NCBI RefSeq assembly: GCF_015207005.2
Contig: NZ_JADEXS020000001.1
Location: 5,665,001-5,729,000, forward strand
Reading direction: 5' to 3'
Source: Desmonostoc muscorum LEGE 12446
GTDB lineage: Bacteria; Cyanobacteriota; Cyanobacteriia; Cyanobacteriales; Nostocaceae
DNA: 64,000 nucleotides
A program made the translations under genes and the position numbers. Positions 46,523-59,992 of this stretch are shown in pieces (position 1 is the first letter of the stretch; each line of letters opens with the position of its first letter). The notes beneath the pieces were generated by a model that was not told where the DNA came from, searched no databases, and saw only the letters and a list, made by a program, of their open reading frames with translations.

Positions 46523-47383
46523 ATGCCAACTAACTTGAAAATCCGGGGACGCTGTTTCGAGTGGGAACAGCGGACTTATTTGATGGGCATTTTGAATGTA
46601 ACGCCTGATAGCTTTAGTGATGGAGGTGAGTTTAATACGACCTCTGCGGCTTTAGTCCAGGCGCAAGCATTGGTAGCTGCTGGTGCTGACATTATTGATG
46701 TGGGTGGTCAATCAACTCGACCAGGGGCAAAGCAAATAACTCTCCAAGAGGAACTAGACCGGGTGCTATCGGTGTTACAGGTACTCAGACCAGAAATTTC
46801 AGTACCCATTTCTGTAGATACTACCCGTGCTGCTGTAGCAAGGGCATCTGTAGAAGCTGGGGCAGATATGATTAATGATATTTCCGGCGGTAGCTTTGAC
46901 TCGGAAATGTTGCCAACGATCGCCAGTTTGGGTGTGCCGATTATTTTAATGCACATTCGGGGAACACCACAAACCATGCAACAGATGACCGATTATCAAG
47001 ATTTGATGGCAGAGATTTTTAGTTTTTTGCAAAAGCAAATCGCGGCTGCAACTGCTGCGGGCATTGATCGGGATAAAGTGATTATCGATCCTGGTATTGG
47101 CTTTGCCAAGAATTATGAGCAAAATTTAGAAATTTTTCAGCAACTGCGATCGCTGAGGGCACTCAACTGTCCTATCTTAGTAGGAGCATCTCGTAAAAGT
47201 TTCATTGGTCGGATTCTCAATCAACCAGATCCCAAAGCACGAGTTTGGGGAACCGCAGCAGCTTGTTGTGCTGCGATCGTGAATGGGGCTGATATCCTGA
47301 GAGTTCACGATGTCCAAGAAATGCGCGATGTTTCCCTGGTAGCCGATGCAATATTTCGACAAGCCGCACAGCGTAACTTTTAG
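46523..47383 (+). CDS. folP: Dihydropteroate synthase
   Basis: 286 residues. It condenses 6-hydroxymethyl-dihydropterin pyrophosphate with p-aminobenzoate in folate synthesis. Motifs: MGILNVTPDSFSDGG (first pyrophosphate loop), DVGGQSTRPGA, SVDTTRAAVARA, NDISGG, DPGIGFAKN and VGASRKSFIGR. All substrate-binding blocks are intact. The stop overlaps that of the convergent SPFH gene by the TTA/TAG arrangement at 47380-47383. Spacer before it carries ATTCTGA repeats (46471-46506). Confidence 0.97.
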   Translation: MPTNLKIRGRCFEWEQRTYLMGILNVTPDSFSDGGEFNTTSAALVQAQALVAAGADIIDVGGQSTRPGAKQITLQEELDRVLSVLQVLRPEISVPISVDTTRAAVARASVEAGADMINDISGGSFDSEMLPTIASLGVPIILMHIRGTPQTMQQMTDYQDLMAEIFSFLQKQIAAATAAGIDRDKVIIDPGIGFAKNYEQNLEIFQQLRSLRALNCPILVGASRKSFIGRILNQPDPKARVWGTAAACCAAIVNGADILRVHDVQEMRDVSLVADAIFRQAAQRNF

Positions 47384-50389: not shown

Positions 50390-50587
50390 TTTTAGATTTT
50401 AGATTTTAGATTTTGGATTGACAAAGACCATAAGGGTAGATAGTTGAGTGATTTTAGATTGACGATAGCGCTTTGGATTGTTCTGCTGACCAGAAACTTT
50501 GCTCTCAAGCGCCAAATAATCTAAAATCCGAGTTGTAGTGTTAGCACACCAAAGGTGCGACCTAAAATCCAAAATTGGGATGTTTTC
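50390..50587. repeat. GATTTTA/GATTTTG heptamer array and relatives between pth and tatA
   Basis: Tandem TTTTAGA/TTTTGGA units at 50390-50420 and a further block (TGTGTTAGCACACC, AAAGGTGCGACCTAAAATCC) at 50536-50577. The latter set (AGGTCGCACCTTTGGTGCG) is also inside the alpha-mannosidase gene at 59255-59312. Confidence 0.7.
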
Positions 50588-51062: not shown

Positions 51063-51604
51063 TTACTCTAATCTATTGAACCAAGTTTCTAAATCTGCGA
51101 TTGCGTGAAAATCTAACAAAGCTTCACCGAGATTTTCTAATTCTTCTATTGAGAGAGTTTCAATTCGCTCGCGCACCTCTTGGGGTAATTCTCCCACACG
51201 GCGAGTTAGTTGACGGAGAATCAGCGATCGTTCGCGTTGTTCTCCTCGTTGTTCGCCTTCAGCGAGAATCTCTTGATAAATCACCGATTCGCGCATCATA
51301 CCCTCCCGAAACAAGTTTCTAATCAAGTCTTTTTCGTATTTTAACCCCGCTAAAATTTGAGTGTAGGCGGAAATTTCTAGTCGTTCTCTTAGCTCAAGTT
51401 GATTCACTCGTTCCACCACTTGTTGCAACAAGTTTTGGGGTTGGGTGGTTGCAGTTAGTGGTGCTAATGGTAACAAAGCCTGGTTATTGAGGAATAATTC
51501 GGGATTTTCTTCCCACATACAAATCACGCGATATTCGTGACGAGTAGTTTCCACATTGAAGGATGTTTTTCGGACAGGAGTTTGCAGAGATTGTCAAAAG
51601 ACAT
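51063..51604 (-). pseudogene. Rpn/PD-(D/E)XK-family gene with the nuclease domain deleted
   Basis: The frame from ATG 51604 begins MSFDNLCKLLSEKHPSMWKL, the usual start of cyanobacterial Rpn-family (DUF4351-type) proteins, but shifts immediately into a different frame that continues as METTRHEYRVICMWEENPEL ... to 51063 (163 residues). The C-terminal part with its acidic helices and ESVIYQEILAEGEQRGEQRE belongs to the same family. The about 100 residues containing the PD-(D/E)XK nuclease motif are missing, and the joint is out of frame. So it is a deletion pseudogene; only the tail (51063-51554) could be translated. Confidence 0.7.
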
Positions 51605-51701
51605 GAATTTTACACTTTTTCCGACTTTTCAAATATCCTCTCAAGTCCAACGCCTCCGACCCTTGGATGAAAATGATTTATTCTTTGCAGATGCCTTGAG
51701 A

Positions 51702-52583
51702 TTATTTTTTTTGCCCAGTCACAATAAAACCTGGAAAACCTGCTAAAAAATGCCCTGACTCGTGCATTTTTTTTAATTGATTTACCCATTGATTTAAGTC
51801 GGATTCTGATATAACTTTTTGATTAATAGCTTGCTCTAAAATTCCATGACAAACCCACATAAAGAAATCATATGGTGCTATATTAGTGTGCGGAACAAAA
51901 GTAATGTTGCTTAAACCTAATTCTTCAAATATTTACGGAAGTTTACAACCTATTAATCCATTGGGGAAACTGTCTGATATGAAGCCAACTATTTTGCGAT
52001 TTAAAGCGGGAAAAGCCGAGTTAACAAAAGTGCCGTCTAAGTAAAAATCAAAGATAGCAAGCTTTCCGCCAGGACGCAATACACGAATCATTTCCAACAC
52101 TGCGTTCTTTGGGTTTTCTAGGAACAATAAAACACGTTCTGCCCGACACGCATCAAAGCTATTATCATTCATCTTGAGAGAGTTGGCATCAGCTACATAA
52201 TACTTGACTGACAGATTTAATTGATCTGCTCTTTTCTTCGCCTCCTCAATCATTAACTCACTTTTATCTACTCCCACAACTAAACCATTGTTACCAACAA
52301 TTTGTTTTATACGTTGTACTTCCTGACCGATTCCGCACCCGACATCTAAAACGCAATCACCTTGTTTAATGCCTAAATAATCGATGATTTTCTGCTTGCA
52401 TACACGCACAGAATCTATTTCGTCACATTTATCTAAAAAGTCAAATAAAAATTTTGGTTCGTTCATTTTTTCGGGAGATTGAAATCCAAGGGCTATATTT
52501 TGCATAACGTTTTTAGAAGATACTGGATGAATTGAGAAAAAGTTGCCTGATAAAGGAATTGTATCTGAACTGCCAAATCCCAA
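51702..52583 (-). pseudogene. SAM-dependent methyltransferase with a premature stop codon
   Basis: The frame from 52583 gives a class I methyltransferase: LDVGCGIGQE (SAM motif I), VVGVDKSELMIEEA, ADANSLKMNDNSFD and EMIRVLRPGGKLAIFDFY. At 51933-51935 a TAA stops it after CKLP, but the same frame then runs on as IFEELGLSNITFVPHTNIAP through FLAGFPGFIVTGQKK to a TAA at 51702-51704, a normal end for this family. CAA to TAA would explain it (LPQIFEELGL). The true start may be 52508 (MQNIALGF). The 216-residue form lacks the C-terminal about 77 residues, so activity is doubtful. It lies 42 bases downstream of the salicylate synthase-like gene in the same direction. Confidence 0.8.
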
Positions 52584-52625
52584 AAATCAAAAAGTTACAT
52601 CTCAGCCATGAATGGCTTGGGTTGA

Positions 52626-53948
52626 TTAATACTTTAATACCAGACAGCACAACATGGTGTTCATTTTGTTAACAGACTCCATGTACTCTTCTTCTGGGAG
52701 TGATTCTGCTACTATACCTGCTCCAGCATTTAGGTAAATCCAGTCATCATATTGATAGATGGAGCGGATGGCGATCGCTAAATCTACTAGTCCAGTGCTG
52801 TTTATCCAACCAATAGCACCTGCGTAAATACCTCGTGGCTCGTCTTCTAGGCGAGCTATCCATTCCAACGCCTCACTTTTATCAATACCGGACACAGTAA
52901 TGCCTGGAAATAAAACTGCAAGAGCATCCCATAAAGTTTTCTTTGATTTTAACTGACCGCTCACTCGTGATGATAAATGCTGTACATAGCGGTATTTCTT
53001 GACCTGCATAAAGTCGAATATTTTAACTGTCCCAGGTACAGAAAGTTTGGCAATCTCTTGTTGAGCAAGCTCGACGGAGAGCGCGTGTTCCTTAACCTCT
53101 TTAGCATTGGTAAATAATTCACTATACAGGCGAGCATCTTCTTGCGAGTTTTCACCACGTCGCCGAGTACCTGCCAACGGATTGGTAATAACAAATCCTT
53201 GATTGTCTATTTGCATCAATATTTCGGGACTAAAGCCTACAGCACGTACATCTCCTATATTCAGACAATATGAACGGGCAGAGTTATTAACTTTCGTTCC
53301 GGCTATATAGGTTTTAATAACGTCCATATCTCCTTTTATCTTTACATAACGAGAAAGTATGGCTTTTTGTAATTTACCTGCTTGAATAGCTTGAATGAGA
53401 ACATCTACTTTACTTTGATAACATTCCCGCTCGTTATCAGTAATATTAATCGATATGGGTGTTGGAACAAACTCTGTTAATTGGCTATTAACTGATAACA
53501 ATTTTTTGATTTTATCTAGCGATTTTATGCTTTTAATTTTTACTCTTTGTCTAGTAATGTGAAGTTCAGTTTCTGGCACAATAAAACATAAAAGTGGTTG
53601 CTGTATTGCTTTGGAGTAGCTTGAGTAGAAGCGAACTATATCAAAAGCAATATAGCCATAAGCCGTCCAATCTCTAATTTGCAAAGACGCTAATAAGGAT
53701 TCTACTTGTTTAAATGGATCGCTAATAGGGACTGACAGCTTTTTTTCTGCATCTTCTAATGAGACAGCCTCGCAGCTTACTGATACCTTAAATAATATAT
53801 TACCAGCAATATGCACTTCGTCCTGCTCTTGATAAAGAATATAGTCAGAAATAACACCTGACTCAAGCAAATTTTGCAACACAATAATAGGATGAATTTC
53901 CCCTGTTACAAACACTTCTTCGTACTCATATGTTTGTGTTTCGTTCAT
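52626..53948 (-). CDS. Salicylate synthase-like chorismate-utilising enzyme (MbtI/Irp9 type)
   Basis: 440 residues, the usual length of MbtI/Irp9. The C-terminal chorismate-binding domain has NPLAGTRRRGE, KEVKEHALSVELAQQEI, IFDFMQVKKYRYVQHLSS, LFPGITVSGIDKSEALEWIA and LEDEPRGIYAGAIGW, then LNAGAGIVAESLPEEEYMES with conserved Mg-binding Glu residues. Salicylate synthases convert chorismate to isochorismate and then to salicylate in one protein, often for siderophores; isochorismate synthase is the main alternative. No NRPS or siderophore gene lies near. It is followed by a methyltransferase gene (now interrupted), suggesting a small two-gene operon for a methylated product. All other conclusions are inference. 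Confidence 0.82.
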   Translation of the reverse strand: MNETQTYEYEEVFVTGEIHPIIVLQNLLESGVISDYILYQEQDEVHIAGNILFKVSVSCEAVSLEDAEKKLSVPISDPFKQVESLLASLQIRDWTAYGYIAFDIVRFYSSYSKAIQQPLLCFIVPETELHITRQRVKIKSIKSLDKIKKLLSVNSQLTEFVPTPISINITDNERECYQSKVDVLIQAIQAGKLQKAILSRYVKIKGDMDVIKTYIAGTKVNNSARSYCLNIGDVRAVGFSPEILMQIDNQGFVITNPLAGTRRRGENSQEDARLYSELFTNAKEVKEHALSVELAQQEIAKLSVPGTVKIFDFMQVKKYRYVQHLSSRVSGQLKSKKTLWDALAVLFPGITVSGIDKSEALEWIARLEDEPRGIYAGAIGWINSTGLVDLAIAIRSIYQYDDWIYLNAGAGIVAESLPEEEYMESVNKMNTMLCCLVLKY

Positions 53949-54189
53949 GAGATTTTTTGATGATTGATATATATTTTAAGAGAGGACTGCTGTTGCCACA
54001 AATTTCCTATACAAGGACTTGCTTTTCTAACTTTTCTCATGAATGAAAAATGCTTCTAAATCTTTATCTTTATGCGAAATAAACGCAGATATTTAGAATT
54101 TGAAAGTTTTATTTTCGGAATGATCGCACTTCCACTTGGTTGCGTTAAATGTAATAATTTGCTTGCTTTTGACCCAACAAAAGCATAAT
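53949..54189. other. Spacer upstream of salicylate synthase-like gene
   Basis: No gene is supported. The region is AT-rich and probably carries the promoter of the minus-strand operon. Confidence 0.5.
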
Positions 54190-54296
54190 TATAGCGGTTT
54201 TCGGTTGAGTCAAATACACTCTTGAGGGCACGGCACTGCCGTGCCCCTACCCACCACGATATAATTTTGTATTGCATCCAACTGAGAATCGCTATA
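54190..54296. repeat. MITE-like element with TATAGCG ends, copy 2 (107 bp)
   Basis: Left end TATAGCGGTTTTCGGTTG and right end CAACTGAGAATCGCTATA are inverted repeats (15 of 18 pairs). The centre holds GGGCACGGCACTGCCGTGCC, as in the element at 38427-38541. Its right edge coincides with the start of the IS4-type relic. Confidence 0.8.
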
Positions 54297-54480
54297 AAGT
54301 TGTTAGACAAGTTGGGTTCGAGTAATTTAGGTGAACAACAAGCTGTTTTTAAAAAAGCATTACCGCTTTTCAATAATTACAAAACTATAGTTTTAGGGGA
54401 TCGCGAATTTTGTTCAGTAAAACTAGCTAATTGGCTTTGCTGGAGATTATCTAACTGTGTCCAGCCCATTCTCTCTTGAC
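54297..54480 (+). mobile_element. IS4-family transposase relic
   Basis: The frame reads LLDKLGSSNLGEQQAVFKKA, LPLFNNYKTIVLGDREFCSV, KLANWLCWRLSNCVQPILS and ends at TGA. VVLGDREF.S..LA.WL, with its catalytic Asp, is the DDE core of IS4-type transposases. Only about 60 codons remain, bounded on the left by a MITE and on the right by loss of the frame. Confidence 0.7.
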
Positions 54481-54857
54481 GTAGCTTGGGATTGAGAACT
54501 TTTAGCGCAGTGCGATACATTGATGCTGCGGGAAACCCTAAAAAATCATCTTGTATCCATTTCCTCAAAACTAGGACTACTTAACAATGTGCCAGTTGCA
54601 GGCGATCGCTTTCATTATTTATAGTAATAAATATTGTCAAGTTCCAACAGATATTATTGCTCAACAGTCAAAAGTATTTACAAAGTACTAATGACCGTCT
54701 TCTACTTTCGTAGAAGCTAGGCATAGCTTACTTTTTTGTAGTTGACTTTTGACCCCTTCGGGGTTCGCCAGTCGCTCATGGGGGAAACCCCCAAGACCGC
54801 GCTGGCTCACTGTGAACAGTGTAATATTTTTTGAACTGTCAGTCGCTTCAATTAAAA
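54481..54857. other. Spacer with repeats before TerB-like gene
   Basis: A minus frame at 54568-54485 (IQDDFLGFPAASMYRTALKV) is protein-like but has no continuation and is not identified. At 54754-54810 lies the dispersed repeat CCCCTTCGGGGTTCGCCAGT, with GGGGGAAACCCCC and AAGACCGCGCTGGCTCAC, typical of Nostoc spacers. Confidence 0.5.
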
Positions 54858-55355
54858 TTATAAAGGTCCACCATCGGGATACATTACTGCCAGCCGTTTT
54901 TTACGGAGTTCGACTGTTTCTAGATAGATTTCTTCAATTTGTTGAAATACGTCTTCAGAAATACCGAGTTTCTTTGCTGCTTTGAGTACTACAACCCGTT
55001 CTTTTTCACTATATTCTCCATCAGCACAACAAGCTTGTATTGCATCATAAATTAGGAAACGCCGTGATACATCTACTGAAGAATGTCCAGTAACGACAGT
55101 CTCGATATCTTCATTAGCCTTGTAAACTTTGAGTTGTTCAATGATTGCAGGGTTGCAATTGTAGGCATAGGCATATCCAATCACCCAATCTCTTTCTTCA
55201 TCTGCTAGTGTTCCATCACCACTAGCACAAGTAAGCAGCGTTTTGTAATAAGATTCATAAGCTATGTCTACTGGAAGCTGTTTAAAACCAAATTTTTCCT
55301 TAAATAACCACAAAGTGCCTAAACTGTTCTCTTTGTCTTGAATATTGCTAGCCAT
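54858..55355 (-). CDS. TerB-like protein
   Basis: 165 residues. Two four-helix halves contain the TerB-type acidic motif: CASGDGTLADEERDWVIGY and CCADGEYSEKERVVVLKAA, each with the Asp/Glu pattern that binds metal in TerB/DjlA-type domains. No J-domain or other tellurite-resistance (ter) gene is near. The protein is soluble with no signal peptide. Function unknown; TerB domains act as stress- or membrane-associated modules. Confidence 0.8.
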   Translation of the reverse strand: MASNIQDKENSLGTLWLFKEKFGFKQLPVDIAYESYYKTLLTCASGDGTLADEERDWVIGYAYAYNCNPAIIEQLKVYKANEDIETVVTGHSSVDVSRRFLIYDAIQACCADGEYSEKERVVVLKAAKKLGISEDVFQQIEEIYLETVELRKKRLAVMYPDGGPL

Positions 55356-55549
55356 CTTTGTTTTTTATACCTATATCGTCGTAATTTATAATTGGGATTA
55401 TTGCAGATTACAGCATGATTTTTGCATATTCACGGTTTTTGAAAGCATAAGAATAACTAATGTCTTCAATAATAAACAGAAGTTGAGCATCCGTAAGAAG
55501 TTAAGATAATTGCACTTTTGTCAAGGGGGTGCGAAAAAAGGGGCTAGAT
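55356..55549. other. Spacer upstream of TerB-like gene
   Basis: No gene is supported. It is AT-rich and likely holds the promoter of the TerB-like gene. Confidence 0.45.
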
Positions 55550-55753
55550 TCAGCTTAGTGACTGTTTTCGCAGAGCTTTGACTATACCTAAATCTTGATT
55601 CTCTTTTGCAGCAAAGTATTTAATCGGGTCATCGGCATTAGCTTTGTCATGGGCAACACTAAAAGAGTATTTTAGCTGATTGACAAAGTACGCTTTTTCT
55701 TAACCTCTCACTGGTGTATCTGGAGAGATTGTAACGGGTTGTTTGGCGATCGC
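55550..55753 (-). pseudogene. Unidentified gene relic with in-frame stop
   Basis: The minus strand reads AIAKQPVTISPDTPVRG, then TAA (55700-55702), then EKAYFVNQLKYSFSVAHDKA, NADDPIKYFAAKENQDLGIV, KALRKQSLS and TGA at 55550-55552 in one frame. It is protein-like, and VTISPDTPVR recalls the start of a CBS-type domain, but I cannot assign it. No start codon region is evident. Degenerate. Confidence 0.4.
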
Positions 55754-56662: not shown

Positions 56663-59600
56663 TTACCCAAGCTTGGGATTAGTCGCTGGTGTCACCTTGA
56701 AGGTGGCGATTTTCCAAGGCTGTATCGTCAAGATTTGTTGCTCAGATGAGAATTCAGGAGCAGTATCAGCAGAACGCTCTAACAAATCTACCGTACTTTT
56801 GAGACGAAATCCTAGATCGCTTTGCAAAGATAACTCGGCTGTTTCTCCGTGACATTCATAACACCGCAGAATTAATTGCTCTGGGTCATCTTCTGCTGGC
56901 TTTAAAGCCATCAAAATCAGATTTTCAGATGATAAATTTAAAAAACTTGCTCCGTCGGGGGTCGGGAGTGGGGAGTGGGGAGTGGGGATTGGGGACTGGG
57001 GATTGGGGAGTGGGGACTGGGGAGTGGGGAGTGGGTTTAGTATCACTTGTAGGGGTGTATTCAATTCATAGCCATGCCGTACTGTGTGGGCTGATTCCCA
57101 GCTGTTTGTGTGGGGATACAAGGCATACGTAAATTCATGCAAACCTCGGTCAGCTTCTGGGTCTGGCCAATTGGGACTGCGTAGGAGTGTGAGACGTAAT
57201 TGATTTTGTTTGGCATCGTACCCATATTTACAATCATTTAGTAAACTAATTCCGTATAAACCCTCGTTTATCTCGCCTGTTAAATCAGCCCAACGCAAGG
57301 CCGGGACTTCCCATTTTGCTTGTTCTGCGGGGGTTTGTGGTTTAGTTGGACGGCGAATTGCGCTACAGGGAATTTCGTAGGTGGCGAAGTCTGCTTCAAT
57401 ATTCAGAGGGAAAGCAGCTTTCACTAATACTTGATTTTCTTGCCAGTTAACTTGAGAGTAAATTTTCAGCAGAGGTGAACCGGCTTGCAGAATATAATCT
57501 TGGCAAAATTCTGATTCGCCCAACTGACGCACTACGCGCACACGATTTTGTACCGCGCCTTGTTCTACCCACTCAATAGATAGAAGATTTGTTGGGGGTA
57601 AGGGATGTTGGGCATAATTGGGGTCTATATTCCAAGCATCCCAATATTGACCGCTGTCTTTAAAAGCTTGCAGTTGATTCCCCGCACCACTCAAAACTTC
57701 CCGTTGATAAGTTTTATCAAAAACACTTGATAAATCTCCGGTGTCAGGATTGACGATAACTCGGAGGAATTCATTTTCTAAAATCCATTCTGGAGGTGGG
57801 GGGGATGAGGGAGATGAGGGGGATGAGGGGGATGAGGGGGAAAGCCAGAAGAGGCGGTAGCCTACGGGTGGGATGTCGGGGGCGAGAAATAGTAGGGTTG
57901 ATGGTTGAGATAATTGGGAGACAAGCAATTTACCAGAAGCATCGTAAATCTGCCATTGCTGGGTAGTTGTTGCGGGTGTGGGTAAGGTGATAGAAACTAC
58001 CTCAGAACGCTGCCAATTGAGAGAATTGAAGATGAAAATAGGTAAACTATTGGGTTTTGGTGGTTGTGGTAAGGTAATGTGAGATGCGATCGCCAGCAAT
58101 GATTCTTGTAATATCTTCGTTCCCACTTCTTCGACTTGCTGCCATTCCGGCAAGGCATCCAGATAAACTTGGGTAATGGAAGAACCAGGCAAAATATCAT
58201 GAAACTGTTGAAATAACACCTGTTTCCAAGCTGCTTCAATTTCGGCTTTGGGATATGTCACACCACAGCTAATATTTGCCAAAGTTGCAAATAGTTCAGC
58301 TTCATACAACAAACCTTCACAGCGTCGATTCCAACGTTTTTGATCTGCGTGGGTAGTGTAGCAGCCACGATGAAATTCTAAGTATAGTTCGTCATTCCAA
58401 GTGGGGAGATGAGGGGATGAGGGGGATGAGGGGGATGAGGGAGATGAGGGAGAATAATTAGTGCTGACTCCTGAATTCTGACTCCTGAATTCTGAATTCT
58501 GAATTCTGAATTCTGATTGGATTTGCTGTAAATACTTTTCGGCGGTGGTAAATTCTAAGTCTGGGAAGAAGGGGGATTTTTGCCAGCGTTGGGCGGTTTC
58601 TAACATATCACGGGTGGGACCGCCGCCGTGGTCGCCGACGCCGGGAAGCCAGAGAGATTCTGGTAAATCAGTTTGGCTTTGCCACTCTAGGGCGTATGAT
58701 GCCATTTTAATTGGGTCGATCGCTTCACCGATGGATGCAGACATGAAACTAAAGACTTCGCTGCCATCAGGCGATCGCCACCAAAAAGCACCATAATCAA
58801 ATTTAGTAGTATCATTCCACCGCAACTTTTGGGTGACAAAATACTCAATTCCAGCATTGGCGAAAAACTGCGGTAAAGTTGCACAAAAACCGAAAGAATC
58901 CGGAACCCACACCACAGTGGAAAGCTTGCCAAATTTTTGTTGTATGTATCGCTGACCATACAATAGCTGACGCACAATCGATTCACCAGCAATCAAGTTC
59001 AATTCTGGTTCTACCCACATTCCGCCGACAACTTCCCACCTTCCGGCTGCTACTTGTGCTTGAATTGCGCTAAATAAATCCGGGCGATGTTCCTCAACCC
59101 AAGCATAAAGCGCCGGAGTCGAATGACAGAAAATTAATTCCGGAAAATCTGCTTGCAACTTCAAAACCGATTCAAAAGTGTTTTGGGCTGCATTCCAAGT
59201 TTCACTCACAGGCCACAACCATGCTAAATCTAGATGAGCATGACCCAGCAGGAAAATTTTAGATTTTAGGTCGCACCTTTGGTGCGCTGAAAGCCCAACT
59301 TGGATTTTGGATTGAATTAGATTTTGCCTTAACGACTTAACCAACTCTCCCCACTCTGCGTCCTTGGCGTCTTGGCGGTTCGTTACCTCCCCCACCGCCT
59401 CCACCAAAACATCCAACTTTTCTGGTGCAAACTTTTGCAAATAAAGTTGTAAAATAGCCAACTCATCAGCCACAAAACCCGGATCGGGATTATTATCATC
59501 ATTAGACTCATAGATAAGGAGCGATCGCACTAAAGCACCATCACAATGTCCCGGACTCACTAACCGCAAAGCAACAATAAATTCTTCCCCTGGCGTCACT

Positions 59601-59992
59601 CCCCGACTCAAAAGCACTCTCGGCGAAGAATCAAATAAATCACCCTCCAGCGCTAACTTCCCATTCACATAAATTTCAGCAGCATCAGCCCACCAAACTA
59701 ACGCCAGTCGCAAAGATAACCCCGCTAACGGATAACCCTGTAAATCTTGGGGAAGCACCAACTTTTGTACTAGCCACAGCACTTTTTTCCCGCCTGTCCA
59801 AGCAATATGTTCTTTAGCATTCAACTCGACAGGTTGCCAATCAGACAAATCAGAAGGTGGAACATCAGTAATTCTTTCCTCAGATTCCCGGTATAACCAG
59901 GTAGACTGGAGATTAACTTGAGAAAAAGAGCGCAGTTGCTCAATTGCTTGTGAGATTAAATTGGTCTGAGATTGAGGGATAATTGGGGTCAT
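56663..59992 (-). CDS. GH38 alpha-mannosidase, with at least five repeat-encoded insertions
   Basis: 1109 residues. The catalytic GH38 core has GHAHLDLAWLWPVSETW (metal His/Asp) and VVWVPDSFGFCATLPQ with the nucleophile Asp; GVGDHGGGPTRDML is a further conserved block, followed by the C-terminal beta domains (DRGLHEFTYALYPHTNSWES). Cyanobacterial relatives remove alpha-mannose from glycans in the cytoplasm or periplasm; no signal peptide is seen. The frame is interrupted at no point, yet repeat DNA has been inserted at least at residues about 205, 236, 495-525, 715-735 and 985-1010 (peptides such as NRQDAKDAE, SPSSPSSPSSP, TPQSPLPNPQSPI). Core motifs are untouched, so activity may be kept. 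It is a few hundred residues from psbN in convergent orientation. Confidence 0.9.
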   Translation of the reverse strand: MTPIIPQSQTNLISQAIEQLRSFSQVNLQSTWLYRESEERITDVPPSDLSDWQPVELNAKEHIAWTGGKKVLWLVQKLVLPQDLQGYPLAGLSLRLALVWWADAAEIYVNGKLALEGDLFDSSPRVLLSRGVTPGEEFIVALRLVSPGHCDGALVRSLLIYESNDDNNPDPGFVADELAILQLYLQKFAPEKLDVLVEAVGEVTNRQDAKDAEWGELVKSLRQNLIQSKIQVGLSAHQRCDLKSKIFLLGHAHLDLAWLWPVSETWNAAQNTFESVLKLQADFPELIFCHSTPALYAWVEEHRPDLFSAIQAQVAAGRWEVVGGMWVEPELNLIAGESIVRQLLYGQRYIQQKFGKLSTVVWVPDSFGFCATLPQFFANAGIEYFVTQKLRWNDTTKFDYGAFWWRSPDGSEVFSFMSASIGEAIDPIKMASYALEWQSQTDLPESLWLPGVGDHGGGPTRDMLETAQRWQKSPFFPDLEFTTAEKYLQQIQSEFRIQNSEFRSQNSGVSTNYSPSSPSSPSSPSSPHLPTWNDELYLEFHRGCYTTHADQKRWNRRCEGLLYEAELFATLANISCGVTYPKAEIEAAWKQVLFQQFHDILPGSSITQVYLDALPEWQQVEEVGTKILQESLLAIASHITLPQPPKPNSLPIFIFNSLNWQRSEVVSITLPTPATTTQQWQIYDASGKLLVSQLSQPSTLLFLAPDIPPVGYRLFWLSPSSPSSPSSPSSPPPPEWILENEFLRVIVNPDTGDLSSVFDKTYQREVLSGAGNQLQAFKDSGQYWDAWNIDPNYAQHPLPPTNLLSIEWVEQGAVQNRVRVVRQLGESEFCQDYILQAGSPLLKIYSQVNWQENQVLVKAAFPLNIEADFATYEIPCSAIRRPTKPQTPAEQAKWEVPALRWADLTGEINEGLYGISLLNDCKYGYDAKQNQLRLTLLRSPNWPDPEADRGLHEFTYALYPHTNSWESAHTVRHGYELNTPLQVILNPLPTPQSPLPNPQSPIPTPHSPLPTPDGASFLNLSSENLILMALKPAEDDPEQLILRCYECHGETAELSLQSDLGFRLKSTVDLLERSADTAPEFSSEQQILTIQPWKIATFKVTPATNPKLG
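56956..57032. repeat. GGGGAGT heptamer array inside the mannosidase gene
   Basis: About ten heptamer units (GGGGAGT, GGGGATT, GGGGACT) in the gene, encoding Pro/Ser/Thr repeats near the C-terminus. Confidence 0.9.
57796..57842. repeat. GATGAGGGG nonamer array inside the mannosidase gene
   Basis: Four to five GGGGATGAG units encode the SPSSPSSPSSPSSP stretch. Confidence 0.9.
58403..58517. repeat. GATGAGGGG and GAATTCT arrays inside the mannosidase gene
   Basis: A nonamer array (58403-58456) is followed by GAATTCT/ACTCCT heptamers (58462-58517), giving a low-complexity stretch rich in Ser, Pro, Asn and Phe. Confidence 0.9.
59255..59387. repeat. Two dispersed repeats inside the mannosidase gene
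   Basis: 59255-59312 contains GATTTTAGGTCGCACCTTTG and GTGCGCTGAAAGCCC, as in the spacer at 50536-50577. 59352-59387 contains the CTCTGCGTCCTTGGCGTCTT repeat, translated NRQDAKDAE. Confidence 0.8.

Follow-up and report, generated by a model that had tools for sequence, protein, structure and literature searches.

According to the relevant passages of Delihas (2007, PMC2229807, citing Ogata 2000 and Abergel 2006), the Rickettsia palindromic elements (RPEs) are dispersed short repeats, palindromes of 105-146 bp, which are inserted in frame into genes that can stay functional. Repetitive extragenic palindromes (REPs) of the GTAG/CGTC type occur inside open reading frames of several species, sometimes two per gene, are known in Anabaena and N. 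punctiforme, and have re-used one site in the recB genes of two Xanthomonas (Di Nocera 2013, PMC3733652, in its passages on these elements). In Nostoc, the short tandemly repeated repetitive (STRR) or G-quadruplex (G4) heptamers GGGGA(C/T)T are mostly intergenic (68% of 89 in PCC 7120), with a minority in genes (Rehm 2015, PMC4692102), and the P6b loop of the tRNA-Leu(UAA) intron varies in length by heptanucleotide copies and extra inserts of two repeat classes (PMC3488679, passages on this loop). In-frame repeat insertions have mostly been described as single inserts. In this study, we describe an alpha-mannosidase gene of the cyanobacterium Desmonostoc muscorum LEGE 12446 that carries in-frame repeats in four loops, where whole repeat families differ between relatives and unit numbers differ between strains around a conserved core. 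The gene lies in a stretch of 64,000 nucleotides (nt) that was analysed as a whole (the window; G000:C1:5665001-5729000 of a 9.6-Mb genome).

Judged by its sequence, the gene product is a GH38 alpha-mannosidase, MAN2C1/Ams1-like, with predicted mannosidase activity. All four GH38 families of Pfam score above the cut-off (GH38N 245-495, middle domain 539-633, GH38C 738-946, GH38C2 1024-1098), and the N-terminal catalytic, middle and C-terminal domains that characterize the class are therefore present. The best solved relatives in the PDB search are Ams1 and other alpha-mannosidases, and the closest named proteins among the matches listed belong to Desmonostoc geniculatum and Nostoc; in each protein search, approximately 8000 candidates sharing most words were scored and 120 matches were listed. 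In 49 sequences, H253, D255, D365 and D454 are invariant and H455 is at least 90% conserved. We take these five to be the metal and nucleophile motif residues of GH38, and the catalytic motifs are spared, as a preceding reading of the window (the sequence-only reading) had stated. The gene and its repeat units are the following:

56663..59992, minus strand: GH38 alpha-mannosidase gene, MAN2C1/Ams1-like, 1109 amino acids (aa), from Pfam domains and PDB matches.
59354..59380, minus strand: S1a, unit AACCGCCAAGACGCCAAGGACGCAGAG, peptide NRQDAKDAE, ahead of the catalytic domain, from position and genome copies.
59255..59314, minus strand: S1b, AATCCAA/AAAATCT heptamers around the hairpin TCAGCGCACC-AAA-GGTGCGACC (59269-59290), read as QSKIQVGLSAHQRCDLKSKI.
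58464..58516, minus strand: S2a, GAATTCT heptamers, peptide SEFRIQNSEFRSQNSG, between the catalytic and middle domains, from Tandem Repeats Finder (TRF) and genome 11-mers.
58402..58454, minus strand: S2b, CCCTCATCC nonamers, peptide SPSSPSSPSSP, immediately following S2a, from TRF and genome 11-mers.
57800..57841, minus strand: S3, CCCTCATCC nonamers, peptide SPSSPSSPSSPSSP, ahead of GH38C, from TRF and genome 11-mers.
56964..57035, minus strand: S4, ACTCCCC-type (equal to GGGGAGT-type) heptamers, approximately ten units, peptide PLPTPQSPLPNPQSPIPTPHSPLP, between GH38C and GH38C2, from TRF.

These six units of five kinds are all in frame and occupy four loops (residues 205-246 for S1, 493-531 for S2, 718-731 for S3 and 986-1010 for S4), with S1 and S2 holding two units each. 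The tandem arrays of S2, S3 and S4 were detected independently by TRF, and the S1b hairpin has the sequence GCGCACC-AAA-GGTGCG. The sequence-only reading had reported five families at five sites without a break of the frame; all five families are present, in frame and near the places it gave, whereas the number must be corrected to six units in four loops, and its list of S1 units had omitted the AATCCAA heptamers. The observation holds, and its extent exceeds what that reading described.

The repeats also occur elsewhere in the genome, as expected for an insertion of the RPE or intragenic REP kind. In 800 kb of the source genome, excluding the mannosidase gene, each heptamer or nonamer array is represented by 69-131 copies of its commonest 11-mer, and the 11-mers of these arrays include the commonest ones of all. 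Within 796.7 kb, longer words of four families occur 37-54 times compared with 0 for the reversed word, the decamer CTCTGCGTCC has 0 other exact copies, and the decamer AGGTCGCACC has 3 compared with 1 for its reversed control. Allowing at most one mismatch, the unit of S1a has 17 genome copies including that of the mannosidase gene (reversed control, 0) and is present in 34 of 34 genomes; allowing at most two, the S1b hairpin has 7 copies counted in the same way (reversed control, 0) and is present in 30 of 34 genomes. A second copy of the hairpin lies in the window near 50544. The earlier statement that all five families are spacer repeats of this genome is thus accurate for the abundant heptamers and nonamers, whereas the two other units are rare and dispersed.

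A census of 800 kb, with genes from a simple hexamer gene finder and intervals overlapping gene borders not counted, gave 38 genic repeat intervals (600 kb) compared with 299 between genes (200 kb), all families pooled. Per kb, predicted genes have 0.063 intervals and the regions between them 1.50, an approximately 24-fold lower density in genes, and the tandem seven-base units are dispersed in spacers in the manner of the Nostoc STRR-type heptamers. With four intervals, the mannosidase gene ranks second of 577 predicted genes, and the first, part of a CobN gene, has five; under random scatter of the 38 genic intervals, the probability that some gene has at least four is P = 0.0034. A strand rule that would allow only C-rich mRNA was unsupported, as 19 genic intervals are C-rich, 12 are G-rich and 7 are neutral.

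Compared with RPEs, the mannosidase repeats are likewise dispersed and in frame in an intact gene; however, most of them are tandem arrays of heptamers or nonamers, which come from several families and differ within one species, and the S1b hairpin is the only palindromic insert. Where the cited passages on recB describe one re-used REP site, the mannosidase gene has many families replacing each other in several loops. Frame, loops and ortholog turnover are not treated in the cited parts of the Nostoc heptamer study. The P6b loop, as described in the passages on it, is similarly one loop varying by heptamers, but it is an RNA loop without a reading-frame filter. In the titles and abstract openings of the literature searched, with most subscription papers outside the search, no report of multi-family repeat turnover in protein loops was found. 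Therefore, although in-frame repeats as such are already known, the turnover of many families at fixed inter-domain loops of a live enzyme gene appears to be new. The S1b hairpin embedded in a heptamer array can be likened, by description and not by consensus, to the small dispersed repeats (SDRs) of Nostoc, which are reportedly very small elements often embedded in such arrays. An SDR5 site is mentioned in a passage of PMC4390886.

A mannosidase match was present in 57 of the 59 genomes searched. From the genus, 33 orthologs were compared, together with 17 others; these 33 do not include G010, in which the gene lies on two contigs, G034, which had no match, or L034, a 62% paralog in G019 that was treated separately. 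The length variation of the genus orthologs falls mostly in the four loops (gapped-column lengths of 21-71 aa for S1, 3-37 for S2, 4-14 for S3 and 13-35 for S4), and three minor internal sites lie around residues 673, 884 and 909; those at 884 and 909 contain repeats in some species as well. Outside these seven variable regions, 881-889 aa are kept in 32 sequences. Among the 120 closest matches listed, the loop lengths range over 31-82 (S1), 15-57 (S2), 15-29 (S3) and 22-45 (S4); in the same proteins, four GH38N/GH38C windows are exactly 41 residues long, compared with 40-41 for a window in the middle domain and 39-41 for one in C2.

The repeats that fill one loop belong to different families in different orthologs. 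S2 contains GAATTCT, GGAGGCA or AATCCAA heptamers, the hairpin GAGACGCGATTCATCGCGTCT, or the GACGCGGAG unit; S3 contains nonamers, the hairpin GAGACGCGATTCATCGCGTCT in another frame, or other units; and S1 contains GGGGGGTTGGGGGGATC, AATCCAA, GCGCACC or GTTCGACTGAGCG elements. The S1b hairpin recurs at S2 of the ortholog L023. Family labels were taken from motif lists that we made, and some reflect a motif in the flanking DNA (GGAGTTA in r909). Mapped onto a tree built from the 2646-nt core, S2 with its five states needs 17 changes, S1b with four needs 11 and S3 with six (one of them "other") needs 10, and these counts may be inflated because the tree is only partly resolved. Outside S2, the orthologs L031 and L001 share 92-100% identity in each 50-column block of DNA, compared with 77% and 33% in the two S2 blocks, and the S2 repeat block of L031 is that of L005, a more distant relative. 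An alignment with relatives had been proposed as a check, with the same peptide on unrelated DNA as the contrary outcome; such peptides are not kept, and many relatives have other dispersed repeats encoding other peptides. The earlier term "repeat expansion" is correct in that repeats are tolerated but does not go far enough, because one and the same site holds entirely different families in different relatives.

In loop S1 of L033, L020 and L008, nested or composite elements of approximately 35-100 nt, delimited by eye, lie in frame within an existing loop repeat.

Changes are also visible within the species. In strain G059, the mannosidase copy is 1102 aa long and in frame, and the sole gaps in its alignment with the source genome (G000) are -27 nt in S2, -9 nt in S3 and +15 nt in S4, given for G059. 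S2b is three units shorter and S3 one unit shorter; the insert boundaries thus match the repeat units between the two strains (27 nt for three nonamers, 9 nt for one), which had been the second proposed check. In S4 of G059, nonamers occupy part of the region where the source genome has heptamers, with a net gain of 15 nt. In syntenic comparisons, the mannosidase gene contains 3 of 3 internal indels of at least 3 aa against G059 (17 genes), 3 of 4 against G005 (32 genes) and 2 of 2 against G008 (10 genes).

The core has remained under constraint. The reading frame is open through every domain in all 33 genus orthologs, of which L029 is cut by a contig end. In the first search, a single internal stop was listed for each of L014, L019 and L021; a later placement removed that of L019, which is open to the end of the match, and the stops of L014 and L021 fall in the final three codons of their matches. 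The ratio of nonsynonymous to synonymous substitution rates (dN/dS) of the core is 0.12-0.27 (six pairs, 882 codons), which indicates purifying selection on this open gene, as in genes with RPE or intragenic REP-like insertions. The loops fall between the Pfam domains, with S2a meeting the final residues matched by GH38N. An AlphaFold2 model built with 49 sequences has a mean predicted local distance difference test score (pLDDT) of 80.8 and a predicted template modeling score (pTM) of 0.82, and the longest three of its ten segments with pLDDT below 50 are residues 499-526 (S2), 990-1011 (S4) and 724-732 (S3). S1 is not disordered in this model, with helices at 211-227 and 229-236 and block averages of 59-79 across 201-240. 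The open orthologs, the low dN/dS and these three loops bear out the earlier view that in-frame repeats are tolerated in loops, and the frameshift or dead gene that was to count against it did not occur.

Taken together, we consider it probable that permissive inter-domain loops have been repeatedly overwritten by dispersed repeats, with selection removing the frame breaks. The four loops would accept almost any in-frame, soluble peptide, and spacer repeats (heptamers, nonamers and small hairpin elements) would be copied into them again and again. Once there, the repeats would grow and shrink by slippage, nest in one another and be replaced by other families, whereas purifying selection on the folded core would eliminate the frame-breaking events. 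Copying may proceed by ectopic recombination or by template switching between arrays with C-rich or AATTC words in common, the hairpins may be truly mobile, and the inserts are presumably near neutral for the enzyme.

Several observations weigh against this interpretation. The copying step was never caught; S4 lacks any listed motif in 27 of the 33 orthologs; S1a is shared by most members of the genus and is possibly old; and the core tree has 15 of its 30 inner branches starred and 8 open. The syntenic comparison with G031 is weaker, with only 3 of 7 internal indels of at least 3 aa in the mannosidase gene (18 genes). Loop length is variable as well in the proteins of other cyanobacteria (9-85 aa for S2), judged by 120 that were listed in a search queried with another cyanobacterium's enzyme, and permissive loop sites are thus not special to Nostoc. 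Moreover, the distances of the S2 flanks give no consistent sign of exchanged tracts, with 105 (upstream), 1747 (downstream) and 632 (both) of 2000 permutations at or below the observed value. Long recombination tracts carrying the loops are therefore unsupported, and any exchange must have been short.

The first alternative is that low-complexity seeds in natural linkers were expanded by slippage in situ only, without any invasion from other parts of the genome. The nonamer changes of S2 and S3 between the strains, which comprise whole units, agree with this idea, and the nonamer CCCTCATCC is read only as Ser-Pro-Ser, in 49 of 49 units in the 33 orthologs and in 9 of 9 in G059, as expected from a single seed. 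However, slippage does not explain the five differing families at S2, the same hairpin read in two frames in different loops, the presence of the S1b hairpin at S2 of L023, or the match of the units to repeats elsewhere in the genome. A nonamer run inside a heptamer array, as in one strain, would also be hard to obtain by slippage alone, and copying from another array would be its simplest account. We therefore regard local slippage as an unlikely sole cause.

The fixed nonamer frame also raises the question of adaptive linkers, in which Ser-Pro or Asp-Glu-Gly rich repeat peptides are favoured for spacing, solubility or regulation. Heptamers are necessarily read in all three frames, whereas all 5 of the C-rich nonamer arrays in the predicted genes of the source genome, spread over four genes, encode Ser-Pro, which would suit a favoured peptide, as would the position of the mannosidase loops between domains. 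Nevertheless, sister species whose cores are nearly identical have very different peptides, the frame bias is that of five arrays, and three G-rich nonamer arrays in the predicted genes use two frames. Avoidance of hydrophobic frames would give the same result without any benefit, and the few cases of nonamer frame bias hint at selection of this kind. An adaptive origin of the repeats accordingly seems improbable to us.

A further alternative is that seven-base arrays act as contingency loci that toggle a gene on and off by one-unit slippage. S4 consists of approximately ten heptamers, and a suggestive case is provided by the gene that leads the census:

L109:11757-15939 (G000:C1 approximately 8.013 Mb), minus strand: CobN-like gene in two open frames, with the split at a repeat array.

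Across the genus, CobN has four loops that are hypervariable and hold repeats of the same kinds as those of the mannosidase. In the source genome, it is split at a nonamer-heptamer array by a difference of 7 nt from strain G059 of the same species, in which it is open. However, CobN is open in 11 of 11 other genus loci (six run off the examined end, with open frames of 1342-1455 aa genome-wide), and the split is possibly a sequencing error in a C-rich run. If real, it represents the kind of event that selection normally removes, and it suggests that a seven-base change in an array can split a gene. Phase variation of the GH38 gene itself was unsupported, with 0 of 33 orthologs out of frame and the G059 copy open, in a sample of few genomes per species. 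We consider the contingency explanation very unlikely. Although repeats are hard to assemble, as the CobN split at such an array illustrates, a dead gene or an assembly artefact has almost no probability in view of the intact frame, the low dN/dS, the same architecture in independent genomes and a core conserved in 33 of them.

A broader version of the preferred explanation, the repeated overwriting of permissive loops, would hold that Nostoc proteins possess permanent landing loops into which spacer repeats of many families are continually copied by recombination between arrays, that only frame and solubility are selected, and that the genomic repeat pool is a standing supply of new linkers. 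We view this extension as doubtful. Over the main Pfam stretches, 8 of 29 repeat intervals lie mainly inside a domain compared with 19.3 expected, and 0 of 20,000 random placements were as low; the test covered 20 of 27 repeat-bearing genes and 29 of 38 intervals (one gene had no Pfam match and six were omitted). Without the mannosidase gene and the chain ends, 8 of 15 intervals lie inside domains, five of them in CobN, close to what the overall domain coverage of 0.591 would give. A genome-wide rule that repeats avoid Pfam domains is therefore not established, because the signal depends on the mannosidase gene and on arrays near chain ends, and we lowered our estimate for the extension slightly for this reason. 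Of the earlier suggestion of a route to new linkers, only the position of the segments between domains is borne out in the mannosidase gene; no gain of function was seen, and an inter-domain preference elsewhere was not established.

If the extension is true, such loops should evolve more rapidly than the remainder of the protein, even between strains. In the mannosidase gene, the process can be watched, as one loop in one species carries differing repeats while the gene stays intact, and the origin of protein insertions and linkers becomes directly testable through natural loop alleles. The length and identity of loops in Nostoc proteins of this kind can mirror the repeat content of the genome and not the function of the enzyme.

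A comparison of indel lengths modulo 3 between genes and spacers of the source genome and G059 was abandoned because the alignment crosses a non-homologous stretch at approximately 51.2-55.7 kb of the window. In the raw tally, 7 repeat-bearing indels in spacers are not divisible by 3 and 4 are, and in predicted genes 2 are not and 3 are. The three divisible genic indels are those of the mannosidase gene, and one of the two others is 98 nt long, at 47380 in another predicted gene. The stretch at approximately 51250-55700 of the window does not align with G059 at that place and is possibly a strain-specific replacement between conserved flanks.

Further repeat-bearing genes were seen elsewhere in the genome. 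In a thiamine-pyrophosphate enzyme (L054:11408-13231, plus strand), which we take to be MenD-like, heptamer and nonamer arrays (aa 214-226 and 357-386) flank the middle domain at 228-354. The gene at L063:2870-6019, presumably AcrB-like, has one repeat array inside a single long Pfam match. One array each lies between Pfam domains at L069:12487-14610, presumably RecJ-like (the MenD, AcrB and RecJ names follow in part from domain make-up), and in the PMT-like gene at L097:15740-17323.

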